Shown here: positions 1 to 22,782 of the stretch, in pieces | Numbering within the stretch: position 1 is the first letter of the stretch | Layout of the letters: each line of letters begins with the position of its first letter | Source: a virus | Virus record (IMG/VR): IMGVR_UViG_3300046723_000060 | Location: 1 to 63,745 of that record | DNA length: 63,745 bases | Direction: 5' to 3' (one strand) | The notes under the pieces: model-generated | Told to the model about the DNA's origin: nothing | Seen by the model: only the letters and a program-made list of their open reading frames with translations | Databases searched by the model: none | Position numbers and translations under genes: made by a program

Positions 1-124
1 TTCCTGTTCCCCCTCCGCTAACATTGGTCTGGCCGCCACCACCAACACCAGACTGGGCAAAGGTTGTCGTCGTAAAGATCAATAGGATAAATAAGAGTCG
101 TTTCATTTCTATCTCACTCCTAAT
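1..124. repeat. Terminal direct repeat, left copy (circular-assembly overlap)
   Basis: Bases 1-124 are identical to 63622-63745. The left copy carries the ribosome-binding site and first codons (to position 106) of the beta-helix gene whose full copy lies at 61952-63727, plus the stop codon of the gene at 120-2516. This is what a circular contig looks like when cut at an arbitrary point with an assembler overlap. It implies a circular map of 63,621 bp. A genuine 124-bp terminal repeat is possible but less likely, because it begins inside a coding region. Confidence 0.9.
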
Positions 125-2516: not shown

Positions 2517-2921
2517 TTAGCTGCTCCCTATCACGTCATAACCTGTGGTTCCGTTGGCATACAAACGAACATATTGATATTGGTTAGACAAGTCCCACTC
2601 GGTCTGACCGTCGATCGTATCGGTACCTTGAGGGAAGATCTGCAGCGATCCCGCACCAGCATCTAGCTTCTTGACCACATATAGCTTTCCTTGAACAGAT
2701 GCCGAATCAGGTAAGGTGATAGGAATGTTCAGGCCAGAGGTCGTACCACGAATGACCATCTCAGGGTAAGGAGTGAAGGTAGCTAGGTAAGCTGAGCTAA
2801 CGTTAACCACTGCAACTCCACCCATGGTATTGATGATGTCGAGGTCAGCATTAAGCGTGGTCCCCCACGTATTAGCCGATCCCCCAACAGTTGGCTTAGT
2901 CAGCCCAAGTAAAGCGGTCAT
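2517..2921 (-). CDS. Short tail-fibre N-terminal-type protein
   Basis: Start chosen at the ATG whose ATGA overlaps the stop of the upstream 914-residue gene; longer reading frames upstream lie inside that gene. The 134-residue product opens with TKPTVGGSANTWGTTLN followed by ADLDIIN. This matches the P-x-VGG-x-N-x-WG-x-x-LN pattern found in many phage tail-fibre and tail-collar proteins at the attachment end. The rest is a compact beta-rich domain with a GTDTIDG turn, as in small fibre or chaperone-like proteins. No signal peptide is seen, unlike its two neighbours. It probably sits on the tail and interacts with one of the adjoining long fibre-like proteins. Confidence 0.75.
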   Translation of the reverse strand: MTALLGLTKPTVGGSANTWGTTLNADLDIINTMGGVAVVNVSSAYLATFTPYPEMVIRGTTSGLNIPITLPDSASVQGKLYVVKKLDAGAGSLQIFPQGTDTIDGQTEWDLSNQYQYVRLYANGTTGYDVIGSS

Positions 2922-5662
2922 TGGCACACTCCAGTTACACCGGATAATGTCACATTTCCAGTCATCTGGCACTTGGTAGTTATACCGTTACCACTTAAAG
3001 TTGCTACATGCGGACTACCTGAAGCATTGTCGGTTACGGTTACTGCCCCTGTCCTGCCACCTGTAGCCGTAGGGGTAAACGTAACGTTCAATGAACAAGT
3101 AGCCAGAGATGCCAACGTCCCTCCACAGTTGGTCACTGGAACGGTAACCACCGCAAAGTCTCCCGAAGCTACTACCGACGATATAGTCAGCGCACCGCTA
3201 CCTGTGTTGGTTAGGATAATCGACCTCACCGTCGAGGTTGTAGACAACGTCTGATCCCCAAAGTTCAGGCTGGTTGGATTGAGACTCACACCGGGAGTCT
3301 GTGCTACACCCGTACCTGAAAGCGTTACTACCTGCGGTGAGCCTGAAGCGTTATCTGAAACGGTAAGATTCGCACTGCGCGTACCGCCAGCAGTAGGTGT
3401 GAAGGTAATGTTGAACGTGCAATTCAGGCCAGATAATAGAAGTGAGGGACAATTATCAGTAAAGCTGAAATCCCCTGGATTAGCTCCCGTGGAGATGGAC
3501 TTGCCGCTAATGGTTACCGTGCCGCCAGGGCCGCTGGTATTGGTAAGCACATGAGCTTGACTAGCCGATGATGTGCCTACCGTCTGGTTGCCGAAGATAC
3601 GGGTCGCTGGCAACAAGGTAACTGTCAATGCTGCTGGAACAGTCAATGAAATTTCATTCGACTTAGCGCTCTCTTGTGCCGGCTGCCATGCTCCACCGTT
3701 ATTACCAGTACCAGATGTGGCGCTAGAGAAAGTGAAGGTCGAACCTGTCGGCTGGCCTGTCGAGGTAAACGTTCCGTTGAACAACGTATTGCCACCTATC
3801 GTCACCGTCGTTCCGCTTGCGAAGGTACAAGTAGCGGTACAGGTTACTGTCGCGGTCGTTCCGTTGCCCGTGATGCTCGAGACAATGCCTCCGATGTATG
3901 CTGTGACCACGTAGAAGTAGGTTCCATTGGCTGGAGTATCAGTTGTTGTGAGCGACGTCAGGCCAGACTTGACTACGCTGTAAGGGCCGCCATGAACCGT
4001 TCCGCGGTAAAGCGTGTAAGCCGTTGGAGTGGGAGACCCTGACGATGCCGTCCAGTTCAAACTCGCTGTACTGCCAGCTACCGAACCGTTTAGCCCTGTC
4101 GGTGCTGCCGGAGGAACAGGGCCTCCACCAGTGAACTGATAAGCTCCAGCCGTCCAGTTGGTTGGGGCTACGGGTCTCGCTACGCCAAGGTAGTCCACGT
4201 TGAGTGCTGTGATACCCAAGCTCGTAAGGTTAGTGCCCAGCAGAATAGCTGAGCTACCAGTCTGTGGCTGATACGGTGGAGAACTGGCTGCGTTCAGATT
4301 AGGATTGGCAATGGAAGAGTTAGCATCGAATCCGGTAGCTGAAGTCCATGCCGCAACCGTAGCAAATCCAGTGCCGCTAGGCCCCGCTCCGCTGAACATC
4401 ACATTCAGTCCAGTTAGGTTAAACAGTACGTTGAAATTACTGGTGGTAAGCGTCGTCCCTGGATTCACAAAGATTCCTGTAGGAACCGTAGAGATAATGT
4501 TGTTTTCTATGGTACAAGGCGAGTCGGTCTTGATGCCCGATTGTCCAAAGCCATTACCGAAGATTATGTTGCTGTAGATCTGCCCCAATGGAGCGGTATT
4601 GGTGCCACATCCAGTAATGTAACCGTTGCTAGGACCATTGCTGGTCGAACCGTTAATCATCAGGTTGTTGAATATCCTGACGTTCGACACCGTTCCGCCA
4701 TTCGGATCAATGAAGATATCTCCCGTTTGCCTGAATCCCCAGTCACCGTGAATCCAGTTGTCGAAGATATTGACCGCACCGGACTGCGTGCCACCAAAGC
4801 CTTGGAACACGAAGATTCCATTGTGATGGAACGTGTTGGTGGCAGTGGTATCATCCCAGTTCACCGCATCAAACATGTTGTTATGGGAAATCTCCATGGT
4901 GCCGGAGTTGGCCCCGGCATTCAGCGCCATGCGGATAGCGTGGTTGATCCGCGAACAGGTATTGTTGGTGATAACGTTATTGGTGTCCGTCGTGCCCTGC
5001 TGGAAATGAATGCAGCTATGCGTGTCGTGCATAGTGTTGTTCTGAACTACGTTGTTGGAACCGGCAAACTGGATGCCAATAGGATAGCTGCCAGATGTGA
5101 CGCAGCCATTCGTATCCGTGAAAGAAGTCCGCACGCACAGGTTATTGATGTGCCAGTTCTGGATGGTTACGTTGCTGCCATCGCTGTAGATAGCGCCTGA
5201 GTTCTGCTCGAAGGCTAGTCCGGTTCCGTTGGCGGTATTCTGGATGACACCGTTTACGCCACCGTCGATGACGATGAAGCTCTGATGATTGGTGATAGGC
5301 GAGCCGGTAAACGATCCCCATACAGGCGAGGTTAGGTTAGCTCCTGATTCAAACAGTAGTGTGATTGGGTGTCCGCTTGTTCCCGATCCTTGAAAGAAGA
5401 AGACGTCCTGTTCGTTCGCGGTACCCGTATAAGTACCGCAGAAATGAACGATGGTGTCAGGACCAATCTGAGTTGCTCCAGCACCCCACTTACCGGCAGC
5501 GTTGAATCCATTGGTACCATCATGCAGCGCATAGGCGTTGGCGCAAGAGGTTCCATCATTTGTTACCGTAGCGTTCTGCGCGTAGTAGATGTTAGCTATA
5601 GACGCCTTACTTGAAGCTGCTCCCACGAGCATCAGGGCTAGGACTATCAGTAATCGTCTCAT
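2918..5662 (-). CDS. Secreted-type right-handed beta-helix protein with FN3 and choice-of-anchor-D domains
   Basis: A 914-residue protein. Residues 1-20 are a Sec-type signal peptide (MRRLLIVLALMLVGA...). Residues 25-500 have many Asn/Gly-rich NNxI/NNxM turns typical of a pectate-lyase-like parallel beta-helix. Residues about 515-600 form an FN3 domain (GLNGSVAGSTASLNW, YFYVVTAY). Two choice-of-anchor-D/ASH-type repeats fill about 690-900 (FGDQT or FGNQT starts, NASGSPxVxTLSG ends). The anchor-D domain is common in secreted acidobacterial proteins and rare in phages, so the C-terminus may be host-derived. Probable roles are surface polysaccharide binding or cleavage; no catalytic residues were identified. 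ATGA overlap with the next gene. Confidence 0.75.
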   Translation of the reverse strand: MRRLLIVLALMLVGAASSKASIANIYYAQNATVTNDGTSCANAYALHDGTNGFNAAGKWGAGATQIGPDTIVHFCGTYTGTANEQDVFFFQGSGTSGHPITLLFESGANLTSPVWGSFTGSPITNHQSFIVIDGGVNGVIQNTANGTGLAFEQNSGAIYSDGSNVTIQNWHINNLCVRTSFTDTNGCVTSGSYPIGIQFAGSNNVVQNNTMHDTHSCIHFQQGTTDTNNVITNNTCSRINHAIRMALNAGANSGTMEISHNNMFDAVNWDDTTATNTFHHNGIFVFQGFGGTQSGAVNIFDNWIHGDWGFRQTGDIFIDPNGGTVSNVRIFNNLMINGSTSNGPSNGYITGCGTNTAPLGQIYSNIIFGNGFGQSGIKTDSPCTIENNIISTVPTGIFVNPGTTLTTSNFNVLFNLTGLNVMFSGAGPSGTGFATVAAWTSATGFDANSSIANPNLNAASSPPYQPQTGSSAILLGTNLTSLGITALNVDYLGVARPVAPTNWTAGAYQFTGGGPVPPAAPTGLNGSVAGSTASLNWTASSGSPTPTAYTLYRGTVHGGPYSVVKSGLTSLTTTDTPANGTYFYVVTAYIGGIVSSITGNGTTATVTCTATCTFASGTTVTIGGNTLFNGTFTSTGQPTGSTFTFSSATSGTGNNGGAWQPAQESAKSNEISLTVPAALTVTLLPATRIFGNQTVGTSSASQAHVLTNTSGPGGTVTISGKSISTGANPGDFSFTDNCPSLLLSGLNCTFNITFTPTAGGTRSANLTVSDNASGSPQVVTLSGTGVAQTPGVSLNPTSLNFGDQTLSTTSTVRSIILTNTGSGALTISSVVASGDFAVVTVPVTNCGGTLASLATCSLNVTFTPTATGGRTGAVTVTDNASGSPHVATLSGNGITTKCQMTGNVTLSGVTGVCQ

Positions 5663-10300: not shown

Positions 10301-11522
10301 TAGCACTGACGATGATTGTTCCCGTGGGACCGCCGCCAGCCGGCCCTGTAGTCAACGTTCCAATTCCAGCGCCTACCGTAAACGTCTCAACGTTATCCTG
10401 GTCGCCAATAATCGGTGTAGCGGCTAGGACACTTGAGGCATTCTGAACACCGTTGATGATGATAGTTGGAAGCCCGATAACCGATTCACCCGCAGCATGA
10501 ACGTTGTTCAAGAACACTTCGATACAGAGCTGCCCAGTAGGTCCCTTAGTAACATTGCGTACATAAGTCTTCTCAGTTCCTACTTGAACGATAGCGCCAC
10601 GCTTTAATTGAGCGATAGTTTCAGACTGTGGCAGCGACGAGCCTGACTGATTGGCTACAGGCTCAGACTTGGACGGTGCGGTAACTCCTTCTAGCGCAAT
10701 CACCGCTAGTCCCGGTGGCCCACTCTCCTGGTAGATAGCCTGAATGTTCATGGGCACGGCCAGAGGTGGAATCACTTCCTCAATAATCGTAATCAGCGTG
10801 GGAGATCCATTCAGGTAGAGGATCTCGCCACGCTGGTACTGCACTACGGGGGAGACTTCGAGTGACCATCTGGGCGGTGCGGCTCCGTGAATACCGCCTT
10901 CTGGAAACGGGCTAACTGGATCAAAGAAGCTCGAGACGATGATGTCGGTTGAGCGACTGTTAGCGCTCCATGCAGAAGCTGTGCCACCCGTGTTCCATGT
11001 GCCGCCGGGAGACAAGACTTCAGTAAAGGTCTGAGCCACTGGAGCCGCTTCACATCCCGTTTGCGGTTCGGCTATACCAACCTTCGATGCGGTGACTACA
11101 CCACCTTCAGGGGCTGAGAACTTCTGATAGTCAGCTCCGTTAGCAATGTACATGTACGGGTCGGGAGACTGGTTGGGACGAAAGGGAACTAATACTGCGC
11201 CAGGACCGCCGGCAACGAGTGTTCCAACTTGGGCTCCGGTATCTAGCCACACTGCGTCATTCGTATCTCGCGCTAAGGTACGTGGCAGACCGTCAGTTTC
11301 AAGCTCCACATAGTCGCGTATGTCGGTAACAGGAGCGCCGCCTGTAGCAAAGGAGAGAACTTGGCCGGGACGAGTCTCGATGGAATCGTCGTTGACCACG
11401 CGAACGTTCTGGGCGTATGGAAACTTGTCTGGAGGCAGAGAATCAGGAGGGTTGTTCGGACTCCAACCTTTGAAGACTGCGCGATTGCCTTGCCGATTGC
11501 GTGTGAAGGTCTCGTTAGGCAT
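7302..11522 (-). CDS. Large tail protein, probable tail-tube/nozzle-type structural protein
   Basis: A 1406-residue protein, the longest in the genome. Start set at the ATG at 11522, which overlaps the upstream stop by eight bases; a longer frame would run through the neighbour. The N-terminus (KGWSPNNPP...YAQNVRVVNDDSIETRPGQV) resembles the N-[V/L]...dG-x-x-x-RPG opening of podoviral tubular-tail/nozzle proteins. The body is beta-rich with several hydrophobic Ig- or jelly-roll-like stretches and no transmembrane segment. No tape-measure-like alpha-helical giant or tail sheath gene occurs, which supports a short-tailed virion. Assignment as nozzle is inference; virion role is confident. Confidence 0.65.
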   Translation of the reverse strand: MPNETFTRNRQGNRAVFKGWSPNNPPDSLPPDKFPYAQNVRVVNDDSIETRPGQVLSFATGGAPVTDIRDYVELETDGLPRTLARDTNDAVWLDTGAQVGTLVAGGPGAVLVPFRPNQSPDPYMYIANGADYQKFSAPEGGVVTASKVGIAEPQTGCEAAPVAQTFTEVLSPGGTWNTGGTASAWSANSRSTDIIVSSFFDPVSPFPEGGIHGAAPPRWSLEVSPVVQYQRGEILYLNGSPTLITIIEEVIPPLAVPMNIQAIYQESGPPGLAVIALEGVTAPSKSEPVANQSGSSLPQSETIAQLKRGAIVQVGTEKTYVRNVTKGPTGQLCIEVFLNNVHAAGESVIGLPTIIINGVQNASSVLAATPIIGDQDNVETFTVGAGIGTLTTGPAGGGPTGTIIVSATTSLNGWGPNAHVGAYEMGINQNFGWGLDPSTTSPYANPGNAGDGNTTTFASAVGQHTHTYYGCIWGFVTGTPQASMALNINSRVLANGDDGFTVTKRSAGIWYSLDNSVTWNQVYNMGPELPASVPLSRPQQWDSIPLPANQDLTQVQVMAFTDSHDDMVHYVYEINISAGAASIGVNTSAFQDDDYLHFSVNVDNPANLAEMRLQFDVSDGTFLDNYYLTGVRPSDLVSATTAATPITLLAATQAIVSETNTYQGAGALNLTPSNPSVAGEGQWTEIWIPIRALTRIGGDQTKTLANINSVQVYVNATATVRVSISSIAFVGGSQPDVGDIGEPYRYRVRPRSKVTGAKGNPSPDMRYGVLAHRQPVQINLPSAAYDTQIDTWDVFRFGGSVTSWRYIGSIASSHSSFQDDYADESAQAGEALEFDNFEPWPSIDFPLNATASTIVGFIAVVTIPSPTLALRYLPGNLVNLGGQSTYTLRVRPTLISGTDYLFEFVECTAGFNQGAISDNGQTNIYEPAIARQFLPYMWGPDVNGTVFAVGDPLRPGTLYFAKGNNPDSAPDAFNMELVTPSEPLMGGLVLDGLSFVGSTERWWALYPQPTNPLQRYNPVQQPLPRGLAAPYACCTDGSQIFFWAKDGIWSSGKGSLTDEDLYNLFPHDGTPGEAQTYGPPGLAHTVLPPDYARAGTFRLTYCNYYLYATYQDSAGNYNTLVYDTRRNAWCVDLYATQVTRFYHPEGQAGTLLTSSTRYPELQMADINGRVSVQTPFTNDLDGPIQVLLATFEDPGGDLRAPKQWGDTFVDAICPAGMAINMMSQAVQVGAPLAVPASATRARQPISVGNALVVSSFMGLYFSWTDDFTTQTAPTTLFLWQTSFVIQPATTIQWQTLGTSFGMQGYGHIGQIAMAYISAADITLQITSYDGQSPLPVTLPSSAGVYVKKLFRVSANKGQLYAFAASSTAPFQFFMEDCEVSVGPWQRQDPYTVMKSFLSGPVDGAPL

Positions 11523-12957
11523 CGTCGTCCGCCGATACAGGTTGCTGCACTGGATTGAGATTACGTTCCCTAACCGCCATGCCCATGAGAGTGTCAGTGT
11601 ACTCGCCAAACTCAGAGAGCTTGCGGTTATAGAGCGTCGCCTGTTTCATGAAGCGCTTGAATAGCGGTACCGTAGCCATGAATTCAGCGCCACCTGCCTT
11701 AATCATAGCGATGTGGACACAGTAATCGAGCAGAGCGTCCAAGTCTTCTCTCGCTACCTGAACTTGGTCAGCATCGAGAGTTGGTATAGGTGCATTCTCA
11801 ACCACGGTGACAGTCAGGTCGTAAGGCACGCCGTTGATACCACTGTCTGCAGGAGGATTGAGAGCGAAGAGGTTCATCCCACTGTAGCTCACCGACCTTG
11901 GTACGCCTGGATCAGCACCTTCCCATGAGGTGTTGTAGAAGTCTGAGCCACGGACTGAGCTTACTTGAGCTGGAACGTTGTTTACCCTCATAGCGAGTAG
12001 TGCCGGAGCTGAGTCTCGCAGGATAGCGCACATCTGGCGGTAGCGAGTCTCGCAGTACTGAGCACGCAACGGATCCTGAGCGTTAGACTCCCTGCTGAAC
12101 AGATCAGCCAACGCTCCCCACTTGATAGCTGGAGTCCAGTCATCGGGTATCAGGAAAGGTGTAGCTGTGCCTGTGAAGACTAAGGTGACGCCAGCCTCGA
12201 CTGTCAGCAACTCGTAGCTCCCACCAAATGCCGGTGGACAGTTGGTATCAAACGATAATGGCGGCTGAGTCGAGAGCAGATACGTAGATGGCAATCCCGG
12301 TGTGCCAGCAGGATTCAGCGTGTAGAGCGCATCGTAACTTTGTTCCGCGAACGTGTCTTCTGGCCACAGTACCGACGGCGCGGGGATGTCAATCCCCGAC
12401 TGGGCAGAACGCCCGTAAATACCGAATCCGTAGCGGCCAGTGCCATAACCTTTGCCCGTAAGCACTGATTCAGTTGGGAGATAGGCCATCCTTCTGACAT
12501 CGATGACGGTGTCAGGGAGCGTAATTCTTCCGGCGACAGCGCCAACTGTTCTGACAGTTTGCGTGCATGAGGTGATCGACAGTAGCTCATCGCGTCTCCG
12601 TTGGACTGCGTTTACAATGTCGTCGTTGGTGAATTGGACTGAGACTACGCCAGTAATAGGCTCAAGTAGATGGTAGAGAATGGTCTGGTAGAGCGATTGG
12701 TCGGTGACCGTATAAGGACACAAAGTGTTGGTGAGATTCGATATGTCGTACCATGTCGTAGAGGAGGCGGTCGGGGCCACAAAGTCTCCCCGCCAGTATC
12801 CCGTAAGTGAATTCCAAGTGCGAAGTCCCTCCGCTATGTAGGCCGTAAGTTCTGCTGAACTCCAAAACACCATGGATGCGTCGAATAAACGGTTCGCAAG
12901 CTGTTGCCTCAGTGTGCTGAGTGGAATGTAGGCATACGGCAGAGCTTGTGTCGCCAT
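11515..12957 (-). CDS. Structural protein, probable head-tail connector or tail tubular protein
   Basis: A 480-residue protein without membrane segments. It begins PLSTLRQQLANRLFDASMVFWSSAELTAYIAEGLRTW, a helical start typical of adaptor/gatekeeper proteins that dock below the portal. The middle is beta-rich, and the last 100 residues (ADQVQVAREDLDALLDYCVHIAMIKAGG) return to helices. It directly precedes the giant tail protein with an eight-base overlap, as tail-tube A and B genes do in short-tailed phages. This is an inference from order and composition. Confidence 0.55.
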   Translation of the reverse strand: MATQALPYAYIPLSTLRQQLANRLFDASMVFWSSAELTAYIAEGLRTWNSLTGYWRGDFVAPTASSTTWYDISNLTNTLCPYTVTDQSLYQTILYHLLEPITGVVSVQFTNDDIVNAVQRRRDELLSITSCTQTVRTVGAVAGRITLPDTVIDVRRMAYLPTESVLTGKGYGTGRYGFGIYGRSAQSGIDIPAPSVLWPEDTFAEQSYDALYTLNPAGTPGLPSTYLLSTQPPLSFDTNCPPAFGGSYELLTVEAGVTLVFTGTATPFLIPDDWTPAIKWGALADLFSRESNAQDPLRAQYCETRYRQMCAILRDSAPALLAMRVNNVPAQVSSVRGSDFYNTSWEGADPGVPRSVSYSGMNLFALNPPADSGINGVPYDLTVTVVENAPIPTLDADQVQVAREDLDALLDYCVHIAMIKAGGAEFMATVPLFKRFMKQATLYNRKLSEFGEYTDTLMGMAVRERNLNPVQQPVSADDDA

Positions 12958-13995: not shown

Positions 13996-14262
13996 TTAGT
14001 AACAGACCCACTGACCACGAACTCTATGTGCTTCGGCTCCAGGACCGCCTACAGTACATTTTTGTCCTGGCGTCGATGGTACCGCACAGTCCGTACAATA
14101 GGTAATATAGCCATCAGAAAGATTCATTCCAGGCATATCACCCATCTGTAGGTCGGCAAAGGTATGAGGAAATAGGCGCATTAAAGCATGGGCACCGATC
14201 TGCGCCTGTACTGCGTAGACTACAATCACCATTATCACCAATAGAAATAATATGCGTTTCAC
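13996..14262 (-). CDS. Small exported protein with Sec signal
   Basis: An 88-residue protein with a clear signal peptide or N-terminal anchor (MKRILFLLVIMVIVVYAVQAQ; cleavage after VQA plausible). The mature part is short, with four cysteines (ITYCTDCAVP, KCTVGG, VCY at the C-terminus) that could form two disulfides in the periplasm. It follows directly after the 608-residue secreted-type fibre gene, six bases away, so both are probably exported together. Not recognised; it may be a periplasmic effector or an accessory of the fibre. Confidence 0.7.
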   Translation of the reverse strand: MKRILFLLVIMVIVVYAVQAQIGAHALMRLFPHTFADLQMGDMPGMNLSDGYITYCTDCAVPSTPGQKCTVGGPGAEAHRVRGQWVCY

Positions 14263-14268
14263 AAGTTC

Positions 14269-16095
14269 TCACTTTCCCGCAACGGTCCAGTTGGTACCGT
14301 CGCAATATCCAAGTACATGATTGGTGCTGCTGCCAGTGATGGTAGCACCCCAAGTGTTGGTAGACGAGTCCGTGATTGCAGCGAATGATCCTTCGGTTCC
14401 AGCAGCGCAGGCTGGTAGGGAGGCAAAGACCATAGGCGTGCGTTTCACGTTGTCGTGTGTTCCACCACTGTTGGTGATAACTAGGCCAATATCACTAGCC
14501 GACATTCCAAGATTCAATGTGTTATTTGCTGATGCGGATATATTCTCACCCACGGCATAGCAGTCCGAACAGTTGGTTAAGCTATCGAGAGAGCCGTATA
14601 TCCCGAAATTAGTCATGCTTGTAGATGAAGATGTCATCGTATTATTGTAGCCAGCCACAACACCATGCAGAATACTGAAGTTGGTAAGACTGAAGCTGTT
14701 CAGGTTCCCGATCCAAGTTACATTAGAAAGAGATGCGCCGTTAGTACTCGATATGGTTACCGTACTTACTGAGCCTAGGGCGTGAACGCAGGTCAGATTA
14801 TTGCTGCCACCTACGGAAGCTGAATTAAGGGTAAACTGGTTATTGTATCCGATGATTTCCACGTCACTGGCACTGGTGCGAGTAGGAGTCCCAGCACCCA
14901 TCGTCAGGGTATTGTTGAACCCGATGAACATGAACTGGCTTTCATTACTTCTTCCAGCCACGTCCATAGCGTTACTAGACCCGATAGTGTAGAGATCGCT
15001 TGCTGAAGTAGTGCCATTAGTGGTGTTAAAATCACCCATGGTAAATATATCGACGCCACCTAGGGAATTATTTCCACCAATCGAATACTCTTCGCTAGTG
15101 GAAGAAATTCCGTGCCCAAGGCTGGTTCCGTCACCTATCGCCGCACATTCCGAGCAACTGTTTATGGTGTTACCGCTGCCAAATGAAAACTGCCCTACCT
15201 GATTCGCACTTCCTGCGGTAACCGTAGTGGTGTCGCCGAAAACAAAGGTCTCCAGAGAAGAATGCCCGCCGGATGCAGCCGTAATTACATTGCTCAAGCC
15301 TACCTGCATGACTTGACCGTTAGCACTAGAAGACGCTGTATCGTCAACCCAAGTCCAATGAAGCGAATCGTAGCAGGTTCCTGCTGGATGCTCGCTAAGA
15401 ACAGCACGATCAACGCTAGGAAGAGTGCAACCTGATCCGCCACCTGTAGATGCAATAGTCAGCGTGCTACCAGAGGGTGTAATGGTAATGTTGCTTCCAG
15501 CAGTGAGTGTTCCCCACACTGCATCCGTACCTGTCGAGATAATAACTTGACCTAGAGTGCCAAGTGCTAGGCGTGCCCACGATGGGTTAACACCAGTCGG
15601 TGAGGTCTGATTCTGTGCGGTGATAAGGTCACCACGGACGGGAGGAGATGCAGGAATGGTATCAAGGTGAGTGGTGGAGAGCAGGTTATGAGCTGTGGTA
15701 GAACCACCGTTGTTACAAGTTGAGCCGACAGTGAAAGGGTCGCAGAGGATGATATCGGAATAAGTTACTGTCTGAGAGAATCCAGCGGAACTCATGGTTA
15801 CATCGTAGCGGCCGTTGTCACTGTACGCCTGCCAACGACCACCAGATTGAGCAGTAAATGGATTCGCCAGAGGAGTGTTGTTGTTGTCCGCATATATCGT
15901 AGCGAGACCCGCTCCATGGATATAAACAGTGATAGTACAACTGGGGTGGGAAGCCTGGACTCGAGTGGTAGAATTCAGACCTGACGTTACCACTGGTCTA
16001 TTCCCCTCCTCGCACCAACCCTTTAAGGAATCTCTCGCAGACGCAAGTTTTGCGCTACCCAGCAGGAACAGCAGTAGAATGAATAGGCGTTTCAT
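14269..16095 (-). CDS. Secreted-type repetitive adhesin/fibre protein
   Basis: A 608-residue protein that starts with a Sec signal peptide (MKRLFILLLFLLGSAKLASA). The mature N-terminus (SLKGWCEEGNRPVVTSG...TRVQASHPSCTI) carries a Cys pair. The segment around residues 150-210 (HNLLSTTHLDT...PARGD-like...WARLALGTLGQV) resembles phage-fibre shaft motifs. From about 290 to 540 there is a repetitive Ser/Gly/Asn-rich solenoid with recurring IGxxNxxxx units (IGDGTSLGHG, IGGNNSLGG, IGSSNAMD, IGFNNTL, IGYNNQF), as in YadA-head or beta-roll adhesins. The last 60 residues are globular. It overlaps the glycosyltransferase gene upstream by 41 bases and has its own AGGGG ribosome-binding site. Confidence 0.75.
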   Translation of the reverse strand: MKRLFILLLFLLGSAKLASARDSLKGWCEEGNRPVVTSGLNSTTRVQASHPSCTITVYIHGAGLATIYADNNNTPLANPFTAQSGGRWQAYSDNGRYDVTMSSAGFSQTVTYSDIILCDPFTVGSTCNNGGSTTAHNLLSTTHLDTIPASPPVRGDLITAQNQTSPTGVNPSWARLALGTLGQVIISTGTDAVWGTLTAGSNITITPSGSTLTIASTGGGSGCTLPSVDRAVLSEHPAGTCYDSLHWTWVDDTASSSANGQVMQVGLSNVITAASGGHSSLETFVFGDTTTVTAGSANQVGQFSFGSGNTINSCSECAAIGDGTSLGHGISSTSEEYSIGGNNSLGGVDIFTMGDFNTTNGTTSASDLYTIGSSNAMDVAGRSNESQFMFIGFNNTLTMGAGTPTRTSASDVEIIGYNNQFTLNSASVGGSNNLTCVHALGSVSTVTISSTNGASLSNVTWIGNLNSFSLTNFSILHGVVAGYNNTMTSSSTSMTNFGIYGSLDSLTNCSDCYAVGENISASANNTLNLGMSASDIGLVITNSGGTHDNVKRTPMVFASLPACAAGTEGSFAAITDSSTNTWGATITGSSTNHVLGYCDGTNWTVAGK

Positions 16096-17041
16096 GCCAT
16101 CCCCTACGACGGACCTCTTCCATAATTAGGCTGACGTCGTGCCGAGTGTATACCATAGGCATATAAGTTTCACTCTCTAAAATTGTAGGGGAGGCCCATG
16201 CGGAGGCCATTTTCTCTGAAAATGAGAGGTACATGCTCGAGCTGATCGAATTTCCCTCGGGCCGCCACCATATTCCTGTTGGTGTGCCCCGCAATGCAGA
16301 AATGATGCCCACTCCGGCCTGGTAGCTAATCACAAACTTAGCCCTGTCAGTGATGGCCCAGAGTTCACCTAGATTGGTCCGACCAATAACACTAGTCCAC
16401 CAGTCCTGACCTTTGAGCAAAGGTTCTAAGATTCCAGTGAAGTAGGCTAGGTCGTAGGAAGCGCCGACAACGAGGATGTGTAAGCCAAATTCATCATGGA
16501 CGCGCTTACCCAGTTCTACCCATTCTTGCGGAGTCCAGATAGGACCGCGGTTATGGCCTTCAACTGTATTGCCAGCGAGAGGGCCGGGATAGAATACGGC
16601 GTAGTCGCCAATCTTCTGGTGTACGTCAGCAGCATGGATACGTTCGATAGTTTCAATATGGAAATCCCTAAAGATGTTCCAGTTGATCTGGTATTGCGGT
16701 AGCCAGTTCTCTAAACGGATACCCTTTTCTAGCGGAGCATTAGGGATGAGTACGCAGTATTTCTCACCGTCGAATTCGTACATGCCGTCTTCAACGTAGT
16801 TGTACGTTCCGTCGGGATGAACGCGAGGACCATAGGCTTGGATAGAGAAAGGCTTCATATCCACTGAGTTTACGAAACGGAATCGTCTGACAAAGTCGAG
16901 AGCGCGGGAGTCAACTTTGTCCTTGGAGCCAACTAAAGAGACGTCGATTACGCCACCGGAATCTAACTTGTCACGGATAGCTTGAATCTTAGTTAACGCC
17001 CAGACTGAGTCGCCAATTCCTGTAGGTAACAAGAACTTCAC
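16055..17041 (-). CDS. GT-B glycosyltransferase, family-9 (heptosyltransferase) type
   Basis: A 328-residue protein started by GTG (GTGA overlap). It opens MKFLLPTGIGDSVWALTKI, the Rossmann start (G-x-GD) of GT9 ADP-heptose transferases, and its C-terminal half has a second Rossmann-like unit (LHILVVGASYDLAYF) followed by LGELWAITDRAKFVISYQAGVGIISALRGTP, corresponding to the D-[T/S]-G-x-x-H-x-A region. The usual DSGxxH is altered to SYQAGV, so donor or activity may differ. It is the last enzyme of the sugar cassette, just upstream of the secreted fibre. Likely role: glycosylating virion protein or host envelope polysaccharide. Confidence 0.7.
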   Translation of the reverse strand: MKFLLPTGIGDSVWALTKIQAIRDKLDSGGVIDVSLVGSKDKVDSRALDFVRRFRFVNSVDMKPFSIQAYGPRVHPDGTYNYVEDGMYEFDGEKYCVLIPNAPLEKGIRLENWLPQYQINWNIFRDFHIETIERIHAADVHQKIGDYAVFYPGPLAGNTVEGHNRGPIWTPQEWVELGKRVHDEFGLHILVVGASYDLAYFTGILEPLLKGQDWWTSVIGRTNLGELWAITDRAKFVISYQAGVGIISALRGTPTGIWWRPEGNSISSSMYLSFSEKMASAWASPTILESETYMPMVYTRHDVSLIMEEVRRRGWHETPIHSTAVPAG

Positions 17042-17661
17042 GGTCGCTCCTTAACCCTTGAGATGAGTATGCTCCCCGTCCAAGTATCCTCAAAGTATGC
17101 CCAATCTACTGACCCTGGACTCTTGCGATGCAATGCCGCAAAGGTAGCGGCTGAGACGACGGAATCTCTCGCATCGTCTACGAGGATCCACCTTGCGTTA
17201 GATCGCCATGCCAACAGAACGTCGTTATAAGCATCATCGTAGGAATGGCCACCATCTACATGAACAAGGTCAACCTGTGGCAGACGATCAATCTTGGTTG
17301 AGTCCGCTACACGGATTCTGCCTCTACTCCCTAGCAGATTGCCCACAAACTGAGAGGGAATAACCGGGAAGTCACGGTCTTGTTCGCAATCGTTATCTAT
17401 ACCTAGGTAGGTGGCGTTAGGACAGCCGTCAAGGAATGCTAGTGCGCTTATGCCTAAGCCAACACCAATCTCAATGATGCGTTCAGGCTGGATGACAAGA
17501 GCTACTTCACGTTTGAAGCACGCATAGCCTAGGCGGAACTTCTCCGTGTGAAAGAGTGGTGCTACTCCCATAGGTAAGTGAGGACGATGATCGTAGGTAG
17601 AAAGAGGATAGTTGTGACGGATATATTGGGCGTAGTCGGTTAGTTCTCCACCGAAGATCAT
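17038..17661 (-). CDS. SAM-dependent methyltransferase (Methyltransf_24 type)
   Basis: A 207-residue class I methyltransferase. Motif I is IIEIGVGLGISALAFL (about 63-78), the acidic residue after beta-2 lies in YLGIDND, and the post-core strand is VDLVHVDGGHSYDDAYND, where VDGGHxYxxxxxD is the hallmark of the family-24 enzymes that methylate sugars and small molecules. It overlaps both neighbours by four bases (ATGA upstream, GTGA downstream). With two relatives at 17658 and 19914 it forms a trio, so it probably O- or N-methylates sugars laid down by the cassette transferases. Confidence 0.8.
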   Translation of the reverse strand: MIFGGELTDYAQYIRHNYPLSTYDHRPHLPMGVAPLFHTEKFRLGYACFKREVALVIQPERIIEIGVGLGISALAFLDGCPNATYLGIDNDCEQDRDFPVIPSQFVGNLLGSRGRIRVADSTKIDRLPQVDLVHVDGGHSYDDAYNDVLLAWRSNARWILVDDARDSVVSAATFAALHRKSPGSVDWAYFEDTWTGSILISRVKERP

Positions 17662-18167
17662 GTCTCATACACCCACATGGAGTGTTCGTGATGGACACCG
17701 GGTAGAAGCTCCTGTGTGGCTTGCATAATGGGACCGTGGCCGGCATCGTGACCGCAGAGCAAGCCCTTGCATAGAGGTTTCCATGCGAGGATGTCGGCTT
17801 TAACATTCTCATAATCGTGACTGGCATCGATGAAGACCATATCGAATGTATTTCCAGATAAGATTCTAGCTGCGTCCACCGATGCCATCCGTACTGGAAC
17901 CACTTTTAGGCTGGCGATATAAGGCTTCATGTTCTCGCAGAAGGCTTCATACAGACCGATAACCGGAGGGTTGTGTTCCTCGCTGCCTAGCCAGGTATCT
18001 ACGGCGAATACGTGGCCGTCAGTGTTGTCGGCTAGGCAAGTGGTAGAGCGGCCTTTCCAGCAGCCTACTTCTACGATGTTCTTGTGAGTAGCGGCTTTTT
18101 CAGCCAGCCAGCACAAATCATGGTCTTCCATCCACCCCTCAATCTTGAGAGCGTTCTCGATATTCAC
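17658..18167 (-). CDS. SAM-dependent methyltransferase (Methyltransf_24 type), second copy
   Basis: A 169-residue protein from a GTG start (GTGA overlap). It contains KNIVEVGCWKGRSTTCLA as motif I, HVFAVDTWLG as the adenine/ribose acid strand, and FDMVFIDASHDYENVKADI as the VFIDASHxYxxVxxD signature, which is canonical for this family. It is shorter than its neighbour and lacks a C-terminal extension. Catalysis is likely intact. Context in a glycosyltransferase cassette suggests modification of sugar hydroxyls. Confidence 0.82.
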   Translation of the reverse strand: MNIENALKIEGWMEDHDLCWLAEKAATHKNIVEVGCWKGRSTTCLADNTDGHVFAVDTWLGSEEHNPPVIGLYEAFCENMKPYIASLKVVPVRMASVDAARILSGNTFDMVFIDASHDYENVKADILAWKPLCKGLLCGHDAGHGPIMQATQELLPGVHHEHSMWVYET

Positions 18168-19021
18168 GAGACACGTTCCAAGATACGTTTGGCGATAGCT
18201 TCGGTAGTAATGTAATTCACAAGTGTCTCTCGCACATCCATCATCGTATCAGCCCATTCCCATCGACATTCACTATTGTCCAAGTCACAAGTTGCCCACG
18301 AATCGCACAAGATTCTTGCTTTCATCAAATCTATTCGTTGAAACGAAACCAAAGTCATCTCGGGACATGATTCTAAGTTAGCAAAGTAGGGTAGCGTCCC
18401 CGCTGCCATTATCTCCACATGCCGCATACAATCCCAACCACCCTTCTTCATGGTGTAGCCGAAGTAGGCGTCACTGTACTGGTCGTAATAACGTTGCTCA
18501 GAGTCGTAGTAGACGTAAGTAGAACGGTCTCGAGGATCACAATGCGCCATGAGTCTCGTCTTACGTGAGAGGTCTATAGGTCTAATCTTCTCTTTGGGAA
18601 TACCGAACTGGATAGGTATCAGGTTGGGATTAGGTTCGTATATCTCTCGCTTGAAATACCAGCCGTGGCCAACCGCGGAAGCTAGTTCCGGCCCATCCTC
18701 ACCGTCGATGAACGCTATTTTATTTGATGGATAAGCATCAAGTACAAGCTGCATATAATCCCTACAGCGATGAATAGAGCCGTAAACCACAGCGTCATAG
18801 TACTTAGACTGAATCTTCGCTTCCACGTTGTCACGGTCAACCTCGATGTCGGGTAGGAGTTTGTAGAGAGAGTGGAACATGCATGGTTCGGATGTGTCAT
18901 ACATGAACCACATCTTTTTGACGTCTACTAGGTCGGGGCCGAGGAGAGAGCGTAAGCCGTGCATGGCTACGTCGCACTGATAATCTGCGCCTGTCGCTCC
19001 TGAGATATAGAGGATCTTCAA
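18164..19021 (-). CDS. Putative GT-B-like glycosyltransferase
   Basis: Start taken as the TTG whose TTGA overlaps the upstream stop; an ATG six codons earlier is possible. The 285-residue product starts LKILYISGATGADYQCDVAMHG, a GT4-like opening strand with a following Gly loop. The C-terminal half has GGWDCMRHVEIMAAGTLPYFANLESCPEMTL, matching the E-x-x-x-x-G-x-x-P-x-x donor-binding region of GT-B enzymes (E-I-M-A-A-G-T-L-P). The middle (DGEDGPEL) is acidic. It belongs to the cassette driven from 21.7 kb. The family is an inference from these two regions. Confidence 0.65.
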   Translation of the reverse strand: MKILYISGATGADYQCDVAMHGLRSLLGPDLVDVKKMWFMYDTSEPCMFHSLYKLLPDIEVDRDNVEAKIQSKYYDAVVYGSIHRCRDYMQLVLDAYPSNKIAFIDGEDGPELASAVGHGWYFKREIYEPNPNLIPIQFGIPKEKIRPIDLSRKTRLMAHCDPRDRSTYVYYDSEQRYYDQYSDAYFGYTMKKGGWDCMRHVEIMAAGTLPYFANLESCPEMTLVSFQRIDLMKARILCDSWATCDLDNSECRWEWADTMMDVRETLVNYITTEAIAKRILERVS

Positions 19022-19917
19022 GGTTCCACACCTTCCCACCGCTCAGTCCAAGCTCCCCACCAGATTTCTTCTCGTGTACCACCGTAACGCTTCTTGAATG
19101 CACCTTCCGTATCTCCCCACACACCTCTAGCTGGATCAGCCCATGGGTTCACTGACTGGTTGTGCAAGTGGATGAACGGAAAGTTAGTCACGGCATACAC
19201 TGGCGGTAGCTTACGAAGGAAACATTCGGTCGGGTACTCGCTGTCGTAGAAGATGCCGTCGTGTTCGTTGAAACGACCTACCTGTTCCCATATGGCGATA
19301 GGGATGATTTGGCCCGTGGGCCCCAACCTGTTCCACTTGGCTATCTTGTTGGGACCTTCGTAACGGAACCAGAAAGAGCGGCCGGGAGGACAGATGTCCT
19401 GACCGTCGAAGGCAACTGTGGAGTAAGCCTCTTTAAGATATTCCCATAGAGAAGGATCCTCCATGTCCTCCCTATCCCACTCTTGTGGAGAGCGGCGCAT
19501 GTCTACCGTGGGAGTGAGTGTCTCGAAGTGACTGAAACGTAGGCCAGAGGATTGAGCTAGTAAGGGATGCTCAAACCACTGAGAGATAGAGTGTTGGTGC
19601 TCAGGTAGAGGAGAGAAGACTAGGTCGTCTTGGAAGAGGCAGGCGTAGTCGAATCCAATGCCCTGCATCCACTCTATGGCTTTATTAAGTCCACCATTCA
19701 CAAAGCCATTGTGAGCATCAAGCCCCTTAACGTAAATGTTCGGCATTTCTTTTTGCAACTCATCAAGCTGCGGAGTGACTAACATGCGATAGGTAACAGT
19801 TGACCTGTCGAGTTGAATGTAGATACCAACTCCAGGTTCCATCTTCCTGAGTGACCTAACACAACGCAGGAGCTTGTTACCACCTGTTGAGGCGATGACG
19901 ACGCCAACCTTGTTCAC
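19018..19917 (-). CDS. GT2-like (GT-A) glycosyltransferase
   Basis: GTG start chosen because its GTGA overlaps the upstream stop; the longer frame extends into the neighbour. The 299-residue product begins NKVGVVIASTGGNKLLRCVRSL, the usual GT2 first strand and helix, then DAHNGFVNGGLNKAIEWMQG and YACLFQDDLVFSP, where QDD takes the place of the DxD metal-binding motif. ICPPGRSFWFRYEG and the His-rich FPFIHLHNQS are toward the C-terminus. It would transfer an activated sugar in the cytoplasm. It lies in the middle of the modification operon. Confidence 0.8.
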   Translation of the reverse strand: MNKVGVVIASTGGNKLLRCVRSLRKMEPGVGIYIQLDRSTVTYRMLVTPQLDELQKEMPNIYVKGLDAHNGFVNGGLNKAIEWMQGIGFDYACLFQDDLVFSPLPEHQHSISQWFEHPLLAQSSGLRFSHFETLTPTVDMRRSPQEWDREDMEDPSLWEYLKEAYSTVAFDGQDICPPGRSFWFRYEGPNKIAKWNRLGPTGQIIPIAIWEQVGRFNEHDGIFYDSEYPTECFLRKLPPVYAVTNFPFIHLHNQSVNPWADPARGVWGDTEGAFKKRYGGTREEIWWGAWTERWEGVEP

Positions 19918-20438
19918 AGTTCCATCCCTTTGAATATCACCCCGATACCGCCTACGTTCAGGTCGCCATTCGTTCCCGACCCACGTTGCCATTGCTCACC
20001 CGATGCCGGATCACGAGCGATAATCTCTACTGATGGATACTGGCGCTTCACTTCTCCCCAAAGTTGATTTACACCGTGCATCAGGATGTCATGGAAGCCG
20101 ATGAGCTTGGTAGCTGCGGGATACCACATATCGAAGTCCTGATAGACGGCGCCATACTCGTGGTCGGCGTCGATGAACACACAGTCCGGTGGACCGCCTA
20201 GGTATTCAAGGACTTGGTGTAAGGTCTCAAGGGAGTGCGAGTCGTTCTGGATATGGTGGATGCCCGGCAGACCGTTCGGCAGCACGTCTACTGTCACTAC
20301 CTTTATCCCGGCTTGCGCGTGCTCCCAGCTCGACCCGACTCCCAACTCGACGTAGGTCTTGATGCCCATACCGAGGCATAGGCTGACCCAAGAGTGGTAT
20401 TCGGGGATACGTTGATTAGAGCCTCGATAGATGGTCAC
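19914..20438 (-). CDS. SAM-dependent methyltransferase-like protein, third copy
   Basis: Start set at a GTG inside the 3' end of the upstream gene (23-base overlap); the extended frame upstream is a shadow of that gene. The 174-residue product has IKTYVELGVGSSWEHAQ as motif I, VVTVDVLP as the second strand and PDCVFIDADHEYGAVYQDFD as the family signature (FIDADHxYxxVxxD). It also has FHDILMHGV, the H-D pair seen in many sugar methyltransferases. Together with the genes at 17038 and 17658 it gives three diverged family-24 methyltransferases within 3.5 kb. Confidence 0.78.
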   Translation of the reverse strand: MTIYRGSNQRIPEYHSWVSLCLGMGIKTYVELGVGSSWEHAQAGIKVVTVDVLPNGLPGIHHIQNDSHSLETLHQVLEYLGGPPDCVFIDADHEYGAVYQDFDMWYPAATKLIGFHDILMHGVNQLWGEVKRQYPSVEIIARDPASGEQWQRGSGTNGDLNVGGIGVIFKGMEL

Positions 20439-21558
20439 TGACCGCCTCCACTGCGTTTTCCATTCCTTTACCGTAGTTCCTGAACATTCGCATGGTTGGA
20501 TAGAACGGATGATCGTCACGATGGATAGGGTATTGCCATGCTGAGTTACCGGGGAGGACGACCCATGTTGGTACACCCATGGCGGCTGAGAGGTGAGCTA
20601 CGCCTGTGTCTACGCTGACTACCATATCGCACGTTGCGATCGCTTTAGCCGTATCGAGCCAGTTCTCAATTACAGGATTGTCGCACTCCTTCGGTAGCTC
20701 ATGTTTGTAGTTCAGGTTGACCCACTGATGCTTCCTGTCCATGGAATTGAGGACGGACTGGAGCTGGCTGGCGTGCATGGAACGGCATTTAGTGGGAGAC
20801 ATGCCTTCGCCGGCGAGAGCGCAGATACCAACACGCAAAGGTCGGTCATTGATTGTCCTTCTAGTTGGAAAGTTTATATAAGGATCCTTGAATGGACTCC
20901 AATTCTCGAACGTCACACCGAGCTTGTACGGTAGCGTAAGAATAGAAGTGTGGTAGTCATAATCGTGGAACTTAAAGTCCGCATTGCCGCCCCAGTTCTC
21001 GATGGCGTGGTAACCCATGTGCTCGATGAGCGGCGCCAGACCGGGCTGGCAGACGTAGGATATCTTGGCTCCACAAGAACGTAACGTTCCCATCCACCGC
21101 ATGAAGTAGAACTGGTCGCCGTAACCTTCGCCCTCAATCACCAGAATGCGCTTGCCTGCAAGAAGTTGATCTTTCCACTCAGGAATGAAGTCCTTCAGTT
21201 GCGATCGCAGGTTGACATCCTGCAAATACAATGGCCAGCCACGGGTGAGGTCGCCTACTCGCAGCAGTGCCCTGCCATAATGTCCAGCGGCTCGCTTATC
21301 ACCGGGACCCAAATGCCATGCTTCAGCTGCACAAGGCAGAGCTTCGTCGAACCGGCCTAAACCCTCAAGAATGATGCTCATATTGAGCAATGTAGGAATG
21401 GTTCTGGCTATCTGCAGGGCCTTCTCAGCGATAGGCAGCGCTTGCTCGAACATACCTTTGTTGTAGAGTTCGGAGGAGATATTCTGGAATTCGGTCTCAG
21501 GGCCGACAGGGTCTACTGGTTCAGGCTCTCTAGCGAATGGATTCAGGGTGAGGATCAC
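20416..21558 (-). CDS. TPR-GT9 fusion glycosyltransferase
   Basis: GTG start (GTGA overlap with the 46-residue gene). The 380-residue protein has two or three tetratricopeptide repeats at about 25-105 (ELYNKGMFEQALPIAEKAL, ILEGLGRFDEALPCAAEAW) and then a GT9-like GT-B domain: KRILVIEGEGYGDQFYFMRW and VVSVDTGVAHLSAAMGVPTWVVLP, the textbook D-T-G-x-x-H-L-x-A-A-x-G-x-P motif, ending with the WQYPIHRDD segment. This TPR plus GT9 arrangement is known in bacterial protein and flagellin glycosylation islands. It is the first enzyme after the cassette promoter. A role in glycosylating a protein, perhaps the secreted fibre downstream, is inferred. Confidence 0.82.
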   Translation of the reverse strand: MILTLNPFAREPEPVDPVGPETEFQNISSELYNKGMFEQALPIAEKALQIARTIPTLLNMSIILEGLGRFDEALPCAAEAWHLGPGDKRAAGHYGRALLRVGDLTRGWPLYLQDVNLRSQLKDFIPEWKDQLLAGKRILVIEGEGYGDQFYFMRWMGTLRSCGAKISYVCQPGLAPLIEHMGYHAIENWGGNADFKFHDYDYHTSILTLPYKLGVTFENWSPFKDPYINFPTRRTINDRPLRVGICALAGEGMSPTKCRSMHASQLQSVLNSMDRKHQWVNLNYKHELPKECDNPVIENWLDTAKAIATCDMVVSVDTGVAHLSAAMGVPTWVVLPGNSAWQYPIHRDDHPFYPTMRMFRNYGKGMENAVEAVSDHLSRL

Positions 21559-21695
21559 TTGTCTTTTTTCGGCGGCCTGCCGCCCTTTCTCGCCCACTTT
21601 ACCAGCGTGGCCTTATCATACTTTGCGGCACGAGCCTTACCGCCCTTGCTGCCCATCCACTTCAAAAACTCGCGTATTGACCTTGTTTTTTTCAC
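21555..21695 (-). CDS. 46-residue basic DNA-binding-like peptide
   Basis: A GTG-started small gene, the first after the promoter at 21704-21732. The product has a KTRSIREFLKWMGSKGGK opening, the GGKARAAKYD repeat-like stretch and a basic end (RKGGRPPKKDK) resembling an AT-hook (GRPPKK). Such mini-proteins are frequent in phages. It may act as a regulator of the cassette. Gene reality is supported by the GTGA overlap with the next gene and the promoter; the reading is not conserved by anything I can check. Confidence 0.65.
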   Translation of the reverse strand: MKKTRSIREFLKWMGSKGGKARAAKYDKATLVKWARKGGRPPKKDK

Positions 21696-21703
21696 AAGGA
21701 TAG

Positions 21704-21732
21704 CTTATATAACTTACCTGTAAGATTGTCAA
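21704..21732 (-). promoter_or_regulatory. Near-consensus sigma70 promoter of the modification cassette
   Basis: On the minus strand TTGACA (21732-21727) is separated by exactly 17 bases from TATAAG (21709-21704), differing from consensus only at the last base. Transcription would begin about eight bases before the GTG of the 46-residue gene at 21695. This lies in the only sizeable gap between the head genes and the cassette, so the glycosyl/methyltransferase genes can be expressed apart from the head operon. Confidence 0.8.
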
Positions 21733-21765: not shown

Positions 21766-22782
21766 CTAATACTGACCACCGTATACTGTGGAAACTCCCA
21801 AGAGAGTATTGTAGGCTCCATAGTTCTGACCCATCCAGTTGATACCACGGATGCTGAACCAGGCGTCTACGAAATCCTTATCCTGCTGGCGATACTTGGT
21901 CATACGGTCTTTGTACTCGGCTTGTGCGGCTCCCATGAGGAAGCGGAAGTCAGGCCCAGTCGATCGTGGTGAGAGATCCTTATTCGCTTCAGCCCATTCG
22001 TAAGCGTACATTCTGGCTCGAGCGATGACGCAATCTTCGCCTACTTGAACTGGTAATGTGTCAGTAGGGTTGACTAGATCGTCTCCGCGACGGCGACCGT
22101 AAGTAGCGTAGACAAAAGGATTGACTGGCTGGCCCCAGAGCTCAAATAGAGGATAGCCTAGAGTTGCGCTGGCATTATCCGTACCTTGGCCTCTAGCGTC
22201 GATCATGTACGGCACAACCTGAGACGGAAACTGGTAGATAGACCGTTGCGGGTCGATCATATCGAGTTCCGCTCGTTCCATGGTTATGCCTAGCCACATG
22301 TACATGGACATGTTACGGACGGAGATCCATGTCTTGTGATCCTTGAACTGAGCTGGATAGTAGAGCTGGTAGAGCTGGTAGGAGATGTTAGTGCCAGAGT
22401 TGTCGTAGAAGGTGCGGTCTAGAGTAGCGGCACCTGTAATCTGATCATACTGGATTAAGTTATAGATTTGACTGACACCTGACGAGGTACCAGGACGTAG
22501 CTGGCGCTGGGTGATCAGCGAGGTAGGACAGTCAAGTTGAGATTGGTTGATAGCGGCTACAGCGGCAGCATCGAACTGAACGGTATCTGAGCCTAGTACT
22601 ACGGTAACGGTACCTGTGGTAACTACAGACGGGCTGCGCCATGAGGATTCATATAACTGGAAGGACCAGATATCAGAATCCCTGATGACTCCCCAAGCAC
22701 GATTTATCAGGGTGCCTGTAAAACTAAAAGGTAGTTTGGGTACAGCGCCCCTTAATTCGGCCTGCATGTTTTGAAACGCCAC
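21766..22782 (-). CDS. Structural protein of the head region
   Basis: A 338-residue protein from a GTG start with a good AGGAGGT site. The sequence has N-terminal LINRAWGVIRDSDIWSFQLYE, a beta-rich first half (VVTTGTVTVVLGSDTVQFD) and a more helical C-terminal half with ERAELDMIDPQ, ARARMYAYEWAEANK and MGAAQAEYKDRMTKYRQQDKDFVDAW. This mixture and its position three genes after the capsid gene suggest a head-completion, connector or gatekeeper protein. No precise family is recognised. Confidence 0.55.
   Translation of the reverse strand: MAFQNMQAELRGAVPKLPFSFTGTLINRAWGVIRDSDIWSFQLYESSWRSPSVVTTGTVTVVLGSDTVQFDAAAVAAINQSQLDCPTSLITQRQLRPGTSSGVSQIYNLIQYDQITGAATLDRTFYDNSGTNISYQLYQLYYPAQFKDHKTWISVRNMSMYMWLGITMERAELDMIDPQRSIYQFPSQVVPYMIDARGQGTDNASATLGYPLFELWGQPVNPFVYATYGRRRGDDLVNPTDTLPVQVGEDCVIARARMYAYEWAEANKDLSPRSTGPDFRFLMGAAQAEYKDRMTKYRQQDKDFVDAWFSIRGINWMGQNYGAYNTLLGVSTVYGGQY

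Follow-up and report, generated by a model that had tools for sequence, protein, structure and literature searches.

Exchangeable TPR-GT9 and methyltransferase cassettes beside an exported fibre gene suggest glycosylation of phage proteins in relatives of Tunturi_1

The complete IMG/VR virus record IMGVR_UViG_3300046723_000060, analysed over its whole length of 63,745 bases and called the window below, carries on its minus strand a cassette of seven adjoining enzyme open reading frames (ORFs) from 21558 to 16055, followed by a 608-aa fibre ORF (16095-14269). A preliminary description of this DNA had proposed a seven-enzyme glycosyl- and methyltransferase unit with its own promoter, and the contiguous same-strand ORFs bear the unit out. 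With gene starts revised by homology (that of the first methyltransferase, MT1, was taken from locus L042; L numbers are our handles for the loci compared), the junctions in gene order from the first enzyme, TPR-GT9, to the fibre overlap by 23, 4, 4, 4, 4, 4 and 41 nt, so the four-base overlap claimed for all of them holds at five of the six enzyme junctions and fails at TPR-GT9/MT1 (23 nt) and between the terminal GT9-type gene and the fibre (41 nt). The sigma-70-type promoter TTGACA-N17-TATAAG (21704..21732, minus strand) is present exactly as described and is the only match in the window to TTGACA-N15..19-TATAAK, for which shuffled sequence gives an expectation of 0.07; a simple sigma-70 scan missed it because that scan demands that the -10 box end in T. 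Read by eye, promoter-like sequences stand at the same position in the near relatives L004 (TTGACA-N17-CACTAT) and L008 (TTGACC-N16-GACTAT), and none is visible in relatives where TPR-GT9 abuts or overlaps the upstream gene. That gene, for a gp11-like 'tail protein' (21766..22782, minus strand; 36% to Tunturi_1 gp11), forms the upstream border together with the capsid genes beyond it, and an SU10-type adaptor homologous to Tunturi_1 gp30 (11515..12957, minus strand; Pfam SU10_adaptor, 32.6 bits) forms the downstream border, which agrees with the location between head and tail genes first given. Comparison with L042 indicates purifying selection on the enzymes (pN 0.13-0.23, with synonymous sites near saturation).

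TPR-GT9 (20416..21558, minus strand) joins a TPR domain (about residues 20-125) to a GT9-type GT-B domain. It scores 24.8 bits against Pfam Glyco_transf_9, over the cut-off of 22, and matches TPR repeats as well. In a model built from 12 homologues (predicted local distance difference test, pLDDT, 87), the glycosyltransferase domain has WaaC as its nearest PDB fold (Z 16.3, root-mean-square deviation 3.1, 226 aligned residues), followed by the GT9 structure 3tov (Z 15.7), WaaF (Z 15.6) and TibC (Z 14.7), a protein that to our knowledge has no TPR domain; the TPR part resembles the TPR domains of OGT and others. Both the Pfam score and the WaaC/WaaF fold place the enzyme in GT9, and its homologues keep D148 of the GxGD motif and D317, T318 and H322 of the DTGxxH motif invariant. 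The combination of a TPR N-domain with a GT-B C-domain is also that of FlmG, whose chain was not among the PDB folds listed for TPR-GT9, from a structure library that may lack it. By this analogy, we propose that TPR-GT9 may be an initiating, acceptor-recognising protein glycosyltransferase.

All six downstream enzymes lie on the same strand. As the preliminary description had it, three belong to methyltransferase family 24, passing the 26.3-bit cut-off of Methyltransf_24 (PF13578): MT1 (19914..20438, 29 bits), a class I S-adenosylmethionine (SAM) methyltransferase, MT2 (17658..18167, 54.1 bits) and MT3 (17038..17661, 40.7 bits). Their profile matches small-molecule O-methyltransferases in the PDB. 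MT2 is additionally matched by Phrog_2675, annotated as a DNA methyltransferase, as would fit a cassette whose glycosylation or methylation targets were DNA or small molecules rather than proteins, but the profile match, the structural-region location and the TPR domain all speak against such targets, and we find this explanation barely credible.

The glycosyltransferases named in that description fared unequally: TPR-GT9 stands by its Pfam score, the second GT9-type protein falls below the cut-off, the GT2 assignment comes from motifs only, and the GT-B assignment from a motif and a weak model. Specifically, the GT2-like (GT-A) protein (19018..19917) and its 12 phage homologues share an invariant DD (97-98) and a conserved GGFDE..YDmEY, with no match to Glycos_transf_2 (PF00535) in the window at E<=1. 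The GT-B-like protein (18164..19021, TTG start) and its homologues share a conserved RHyEIMAAGxLPYF motif; the thirteen best PDB folds for its model are all GT-B enzymes (SenB, CalG1, MurG, HepE; Z 9-10), and the model, at pLDDT 57, is too weak to prove the fold. Neither protein has a Pfam match, and a PDB sequence search with the two gave one meaningless hit (E=1.7). The terminal GT9-type protein (16055..17041) reaches 20.2 bits against Glyco_transf_9, below the cut-off of 22, matches WaaF weakly (E 0.021) and carries SYQ[AS]GVGI instead of the canonical DTGxxH in 9/9 homologues; it is nevertheless the best-conserved cassette enzyme (55-74% identity between cassettes) and would appear from its residues to be a divergent enzyme that at best works like a GT9. 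No relatives of the terminal GT9 or the GT2-like protein were found among 50,697 phage records. The single bacterial locus with relatives of the terminal GT9, L041 from a Gemmataceae assembly, was set aside as apparently phage-derived.

The fibre (14269..16095, minus strand), our proposed acceptor, consists of a Sec signal peptide, a conserved N-domain with a Cys pair, and a variable body with 29% S/T, 9% N and 13% G, in line with its earlier characterisation as a secreted Ser/Gly/Asn-rich fibre. The N-domain has matches in Tunturi_1 gp12 and in the tail fibre of a Klebsiella phage and is conserved family-wide, with the remainder variable, an arrangement that looks like the usual receptor-binding protein design. 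Signal peptides were read by simple sequence rules, not by a trained predictor. On these rules, the Sec signal peptide and the Cys pair occur in 11/11 cassette phages whose fibre start could be read and in most other relatives, and the fibres of L030, L031, L033 and L034 are without the signal peptide and the first Cys.

The window contains homologues of the Tunturi_1 terminase, portal, major head protein, gp11-like, adaptor and large structural proteins at ~29-38% identity; Pfam identifies the portal as P22-type and the adaptor as SU10-type. No relative at the DNA level was found among the same 50,697 phage records; the major head protein has 63-97% identical homologues at 35 IMG/VR loci. The virus is a soil phage. 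Because its relative Tunturi_1, like Tunturi_2, is a phage of Tunturiibacter (PMC11924767), the host is probably an acidobacterium. Capsid, portal, terminase and fibre N-domain relate the window to Tunturi_1, whereas the cassette is absent between gp11 and gp12 of the latter.

The preliminary description had suggested comparing cassette borders in related phages, and this comparison revealed a slot, flanked by the gp11-like gene and the fibre N-domain, that in relatives covering both borders is either empty or holds a cassette headed by TPR-GT9. The fibre N-domain comes directly after the gp11-like gene in L017, L018, L022, L024, L025, L028-L031, L033, L034, L036, L038 and Tunturi_1, and L027 has no cassette but a 632-aa ORF in between. 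Two-gene cassettes of TPR-GT9 and a methyltransferase are found in L014 and L032, and larger ones, most of them with MT3, in L042, L044-L049 and L020 (four genes in L045, a maximum of about nine). Wherever we found a cassette in Tunturi-like phages, it lay immediately 5′ of the fibre, and its first enzyme carried a TPR domain. In a phylogeny built on the capsid, portal and gp11-like proteins, cassette presence requires 5 changes, at least 2 of them forced by well-supported branches; the cassette-bearing L014 and the cassette-free L022 are sisters (support 100/97). The window's nearest relative, L004, is 95% identical over 1401 core columns but only 51% in TPR-GT9, and the more distant L007 has a TPR-GT9 77-80% identical to that of the window, so the cassette has been replaced. 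Slot contents change faster than the core genome and independently of it. The cassette of L044 also carries a c19 protein, as do those of L051 and L052 in a separate phage group, and the c19 N-terminus of the latter two looks like a sugar-nucleotide epimerase.

Two further features of the slot were recorded on the way. Inserts of ~0.5 kb lie between the gp11-like gene and TPR-GT9 in L007 (7937-8422), L020 (5136-5640) and L021 (13398-13890); minus-strand insert ORFs of 150-163 aa, shared by L007/L042 and by L021/L048, are perhaps HNH/homing endonucleases. The contigs of L004, L005, L009, L010, L011 and L012 stop at or near the cassette, which is what one would expect of assemblies that break where the sequence is hypervariable.

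Relatives of TPR-GT9 were confirmed in 350 IMG/VR stretches, the best 80 of which we surveyed. In podovirus ctDrO704, TPR/GT9 and methyltransferase genes lie 3′ of the capsid gene (MCP), and cyanophage BUCT-ZZ01 encodes, near a tail fibre gene, a TPR-GT9-like protein with what reads as a methyltransferase at its C-terminus. L066, a piece of a 125-kb contig, has TPR-GT9, GT2 and MT24 interleaved with signal-peptide proteins. The separate group L050-L052 has a similar cassette between the major head protein and neck/tail genes, with relatives of the terminal GT9, GT2-like, GT-B-like and methyltransferase proteins. Proximity to virion genes is not universal, since L126 has its relative in an apparently non-structural region. 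In L137, L110 and similar large phages, the gene for a phrog_138 major head protein has next to it a single TPR-GT9 gene that points the other way; a 195-aa neighbour of TPR-GT9 in such loci weakly matches the sialyltransferase family phrog_4603.

We argue for a protein acceptor mainly because TPR-GT9 recurs beside virion genes and has a TPR domain. That the cassette glycosylates phage proteins in general is, in our judgement, very likely, and that it carries out cytoplasmic glycosylation and O-methylation of phage proteins with the fibre as the best candidate acceptor is probable; that the fibre is the main acceptor we put at even chances. Within this framework, we infer the following order of events. 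The cassette would be a mobile, phage-encoded protein O-glycosylation unit, transcribed from its own promoter, whose soluble enzymes would work in the infected cell. With its TPR domain, TPR-GT9 would bind a freshly synthesised phage protein and start a sugar chain on Ser/Thr; this chain would be extended by the GT2-like, GT-B-like and terminal GT9-type enzymes and O-methylated by MT1, MT2 and MT3. The likeliest acceptor would be the downstream fibre, modified in the cytoplasm ahead of Sec export, as is thought for TibA/AIDA-I, and the capsid, h1 and the gp11-like protein may be modified in addition or instead. Exchange of the cassette would then alter the sugar coat of the phage, and might serve either a change in adsorption range or the masking of fibre or virion.

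The same chemistry could instead be directed at the capsid or another virion protein (the major head protein, h1 or the gp11-like protein), with the proximity to the fibre incidental. An L137-type major head protein homologue lies near TPR-GT9 at 22 of 31 distinct distant loci (median distance 1.2 kb), the major capsid gene likewise adjoins related cassettes or TPR-GT9 in L050-L052 and ctDrO704, the capsid proteins of Che8 and Rita are glycosylated (PMC11256854), and h1 has the best distance correlation with TPR-GT9 (partial r 0.54-0.66). The Tunturi-like phages point the other way, with a cassette always directly 5′ of the fibre, and, between the window and L042, no part of the region changes faster than the fibre and the cassette; capsid composition gives no sign beyond a marginal Ser/Thr difference. 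We regard this alternative as unlikely, though it keeps an appreciable share of our expectation.

Several observations weigh against our favoured reading, the modification of phage proteins with the fibre as best candidate. All evidence for virion sugar is genomic, the survey of TPR-GT9 relatives is limited to the best 80, and, of the four glycosyltransferases, two owe their assignment to motifs or to a weak model; the donor and activity of a third, the terminal GT9-type protein, are uncertain because the canonical DTGxxH is missing. The cassettes of L050-L052 adjoin the capsid gene, have no neighbouring fibre and show no detectable TPR domain. Ser/Thr/Asn content does not differ between fibres of cassette-bearing and cassette-free phages, N-X-S/T sequons are not enriched in the former, and Gly alone is higher in them (p 0.008, uncorrected for many tests); shorter fibres in cassette phages were ruled out (Mann-Whitney p 0.97). 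In Mantel tests for the acceptor of the TPR domain, TPR-GT9 distances correlate equally strongly with those of h1, the gp11-like protein and the fibre N-domain, every structural protein correlates and none stands out. The acceptor tests thus singled out no protein, and the fibre as acceptor is therefore argued from adjacency and analogy. Decoration of the fibre or of host polysaccharide with methylated sugars, as first suggested, is best supported in the form of phage-protein modification, with the fibre not singled out by composition, length or distance.

The host-polysaccharide half of that suggestion has the enzymes act on a surface polysaccharide of the bacterium, for example the lipopolysaccharide (LPS) core at the cytoplasmic face, so as to block superinfection or change the receptor. 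GT9 enzymes are classically LPS heptosyltransferases, WaaC is the closest fold, and phage glycosyltransferases are often seroconverting. The cassette, however, does not resemble a gtrABC-type seroconversion locus, as it contains no flippase, polymerase or polyprenyl-phosphate transferase, and its enzymes are soluble, without membrane segments save a weak stretch in MT3 that coincides with the SAM-binding core. The TPR domain in the first enzyme throughout the family and the structural-region location in several unrelated phages also disfavour it, and we think this reading quite improbable.

Modification of phage proteins has parallels in bacteria and in other viruses. The preliminary description held that TPR-GT9 enzymes are known from bacterial protein glycosylation; our literature search found no paper on a TPR-GT9, and the nearest counterpart is FlmG of Caulobacter, a TPR and GT-B enzyme that binds and glycosylates flagellins (PMC7591256). 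Like FlmG, TPR-GT9 has a TPR N-domain and a GT-B C-domain and would act in the cytoplasm on exported surface-filament proteins, but FlmG uses pseudaminic acid and flagellins, whereas the cassette has a GT9-type domain and sits in a phage operon with extra transferases and methyltransferases. Exported adhesins of the TibA/AIDA-I type are modified by TibC, which has a GT9-like fold (PMC4358343). TibC/AAH share with TPR-GT9 the heptosyltransferase-type GT-B fold, and their target is an adhesin that is Ser-rich, begins with a signal peptide and is exported; TibC differs as an iron-containing dodecamer acting as a single enzyme, in contrast to a multi-enzyme, methylating cassette. Glycans have been reported on virion proteins of mycobacteriophages Che8 and Rita (Freeman et al. 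2023, cited in PMC11256854), which likewise encode glycosyltransferases. The glycosyltransferase genes of the related Maravista are located towards the 3′ end of the genome and not in a fibre-side cassette, and no TPR-GT9 cassette is described there. In chlorovirus PBCV-1, the methyltransferase of A064R caps a virion-protein glycan (PMC7019647), again with virus-encoded transferases and a methyltransferase, but in a eukaryotic algal virus, on an N-linked glycan of the major capsid protein and with fused enzyme domains.

The signal peptide of the fibre has a bearing on how such phages are built. In the cultured isolate Tunturi_1 (L002:10371-23028, PP887698), signal-peptide-like N-termini occur in most of the fibre/spike module, namely in gp12, gp13, gp14 (annotated tail spike), gp16 and gp17, and the terminase, portal, major head protein, gp11, gp30, gp31 and gp36 have no such start. 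The conserved Cys pair in the N-domain of the fibre hints that disulfides form outside the cytoplasm. Tentatively, we consider that the fibre and spike set of acidobacterial phages of this family might be made as Sec pre-proteins, with the cassette glycosylating and methylating the fibre before export, for which FlmG-modified flagellin offers a bacterial parallel. Fibres glycosylated and then exported would either be added to virions outside the cytoplasm, when the cell lyses or later, or do their work at the surface of the infected cell. Our literature search found no paper on phage fibre modules with signal peptides and no description of a glycoprotein export route for tailed phages.

Other proteins of the window also have signal peptides of the Sec type, namely one of 914 aa with ASH/HYDIN-type Ig domains (2918-5662, minus strand), two of 798 aa (120-2516, minus strand) and 591 aa (61952-63727, minus strand), and one of 125 aa with a lipobox-like LSGC (52558-52935, plus strand). 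Directly 3′ of the fibre, a small exported protein of 88 aa with a signal peptide and 4 Cys (13996..14262, minus strand) has a 60% identical copy in L007. At the other end of the cassette, a KGG-type basic ORF of 33 codons, MGSKGGKARAAKYDKATLVKWARKGGRPPKKDK (21555..21656, minus strand), which the preliminary description does not have, lies after the promoter and runs 4 nt into TPR-GT9; it has no counterpart in the relatives inspected, and we are unsure that it is a gene.

Phage protein glycosylation as such is known from mycobacteriophage capsids (PMC11256854), and a methylated glycan cap from algal viruses (PMC7019647); here it would take the form of an exchangeable TPR-GT9/methyltransferase cassette adjoining an exported fibre. 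If our reading is right, the phage would disguise or tune its surface with sugar, as bacteria do with adhesins and flagella, and the coupling of the cassette with signal-peptide fibres raises the question of how acidobacterial phages are assembled. Virion glycosylation has so far been reported in few phages, and a recurrent TPR-GT9 cassette would make phage protein glycosylation common, predictable and testable by glycoproteomics.

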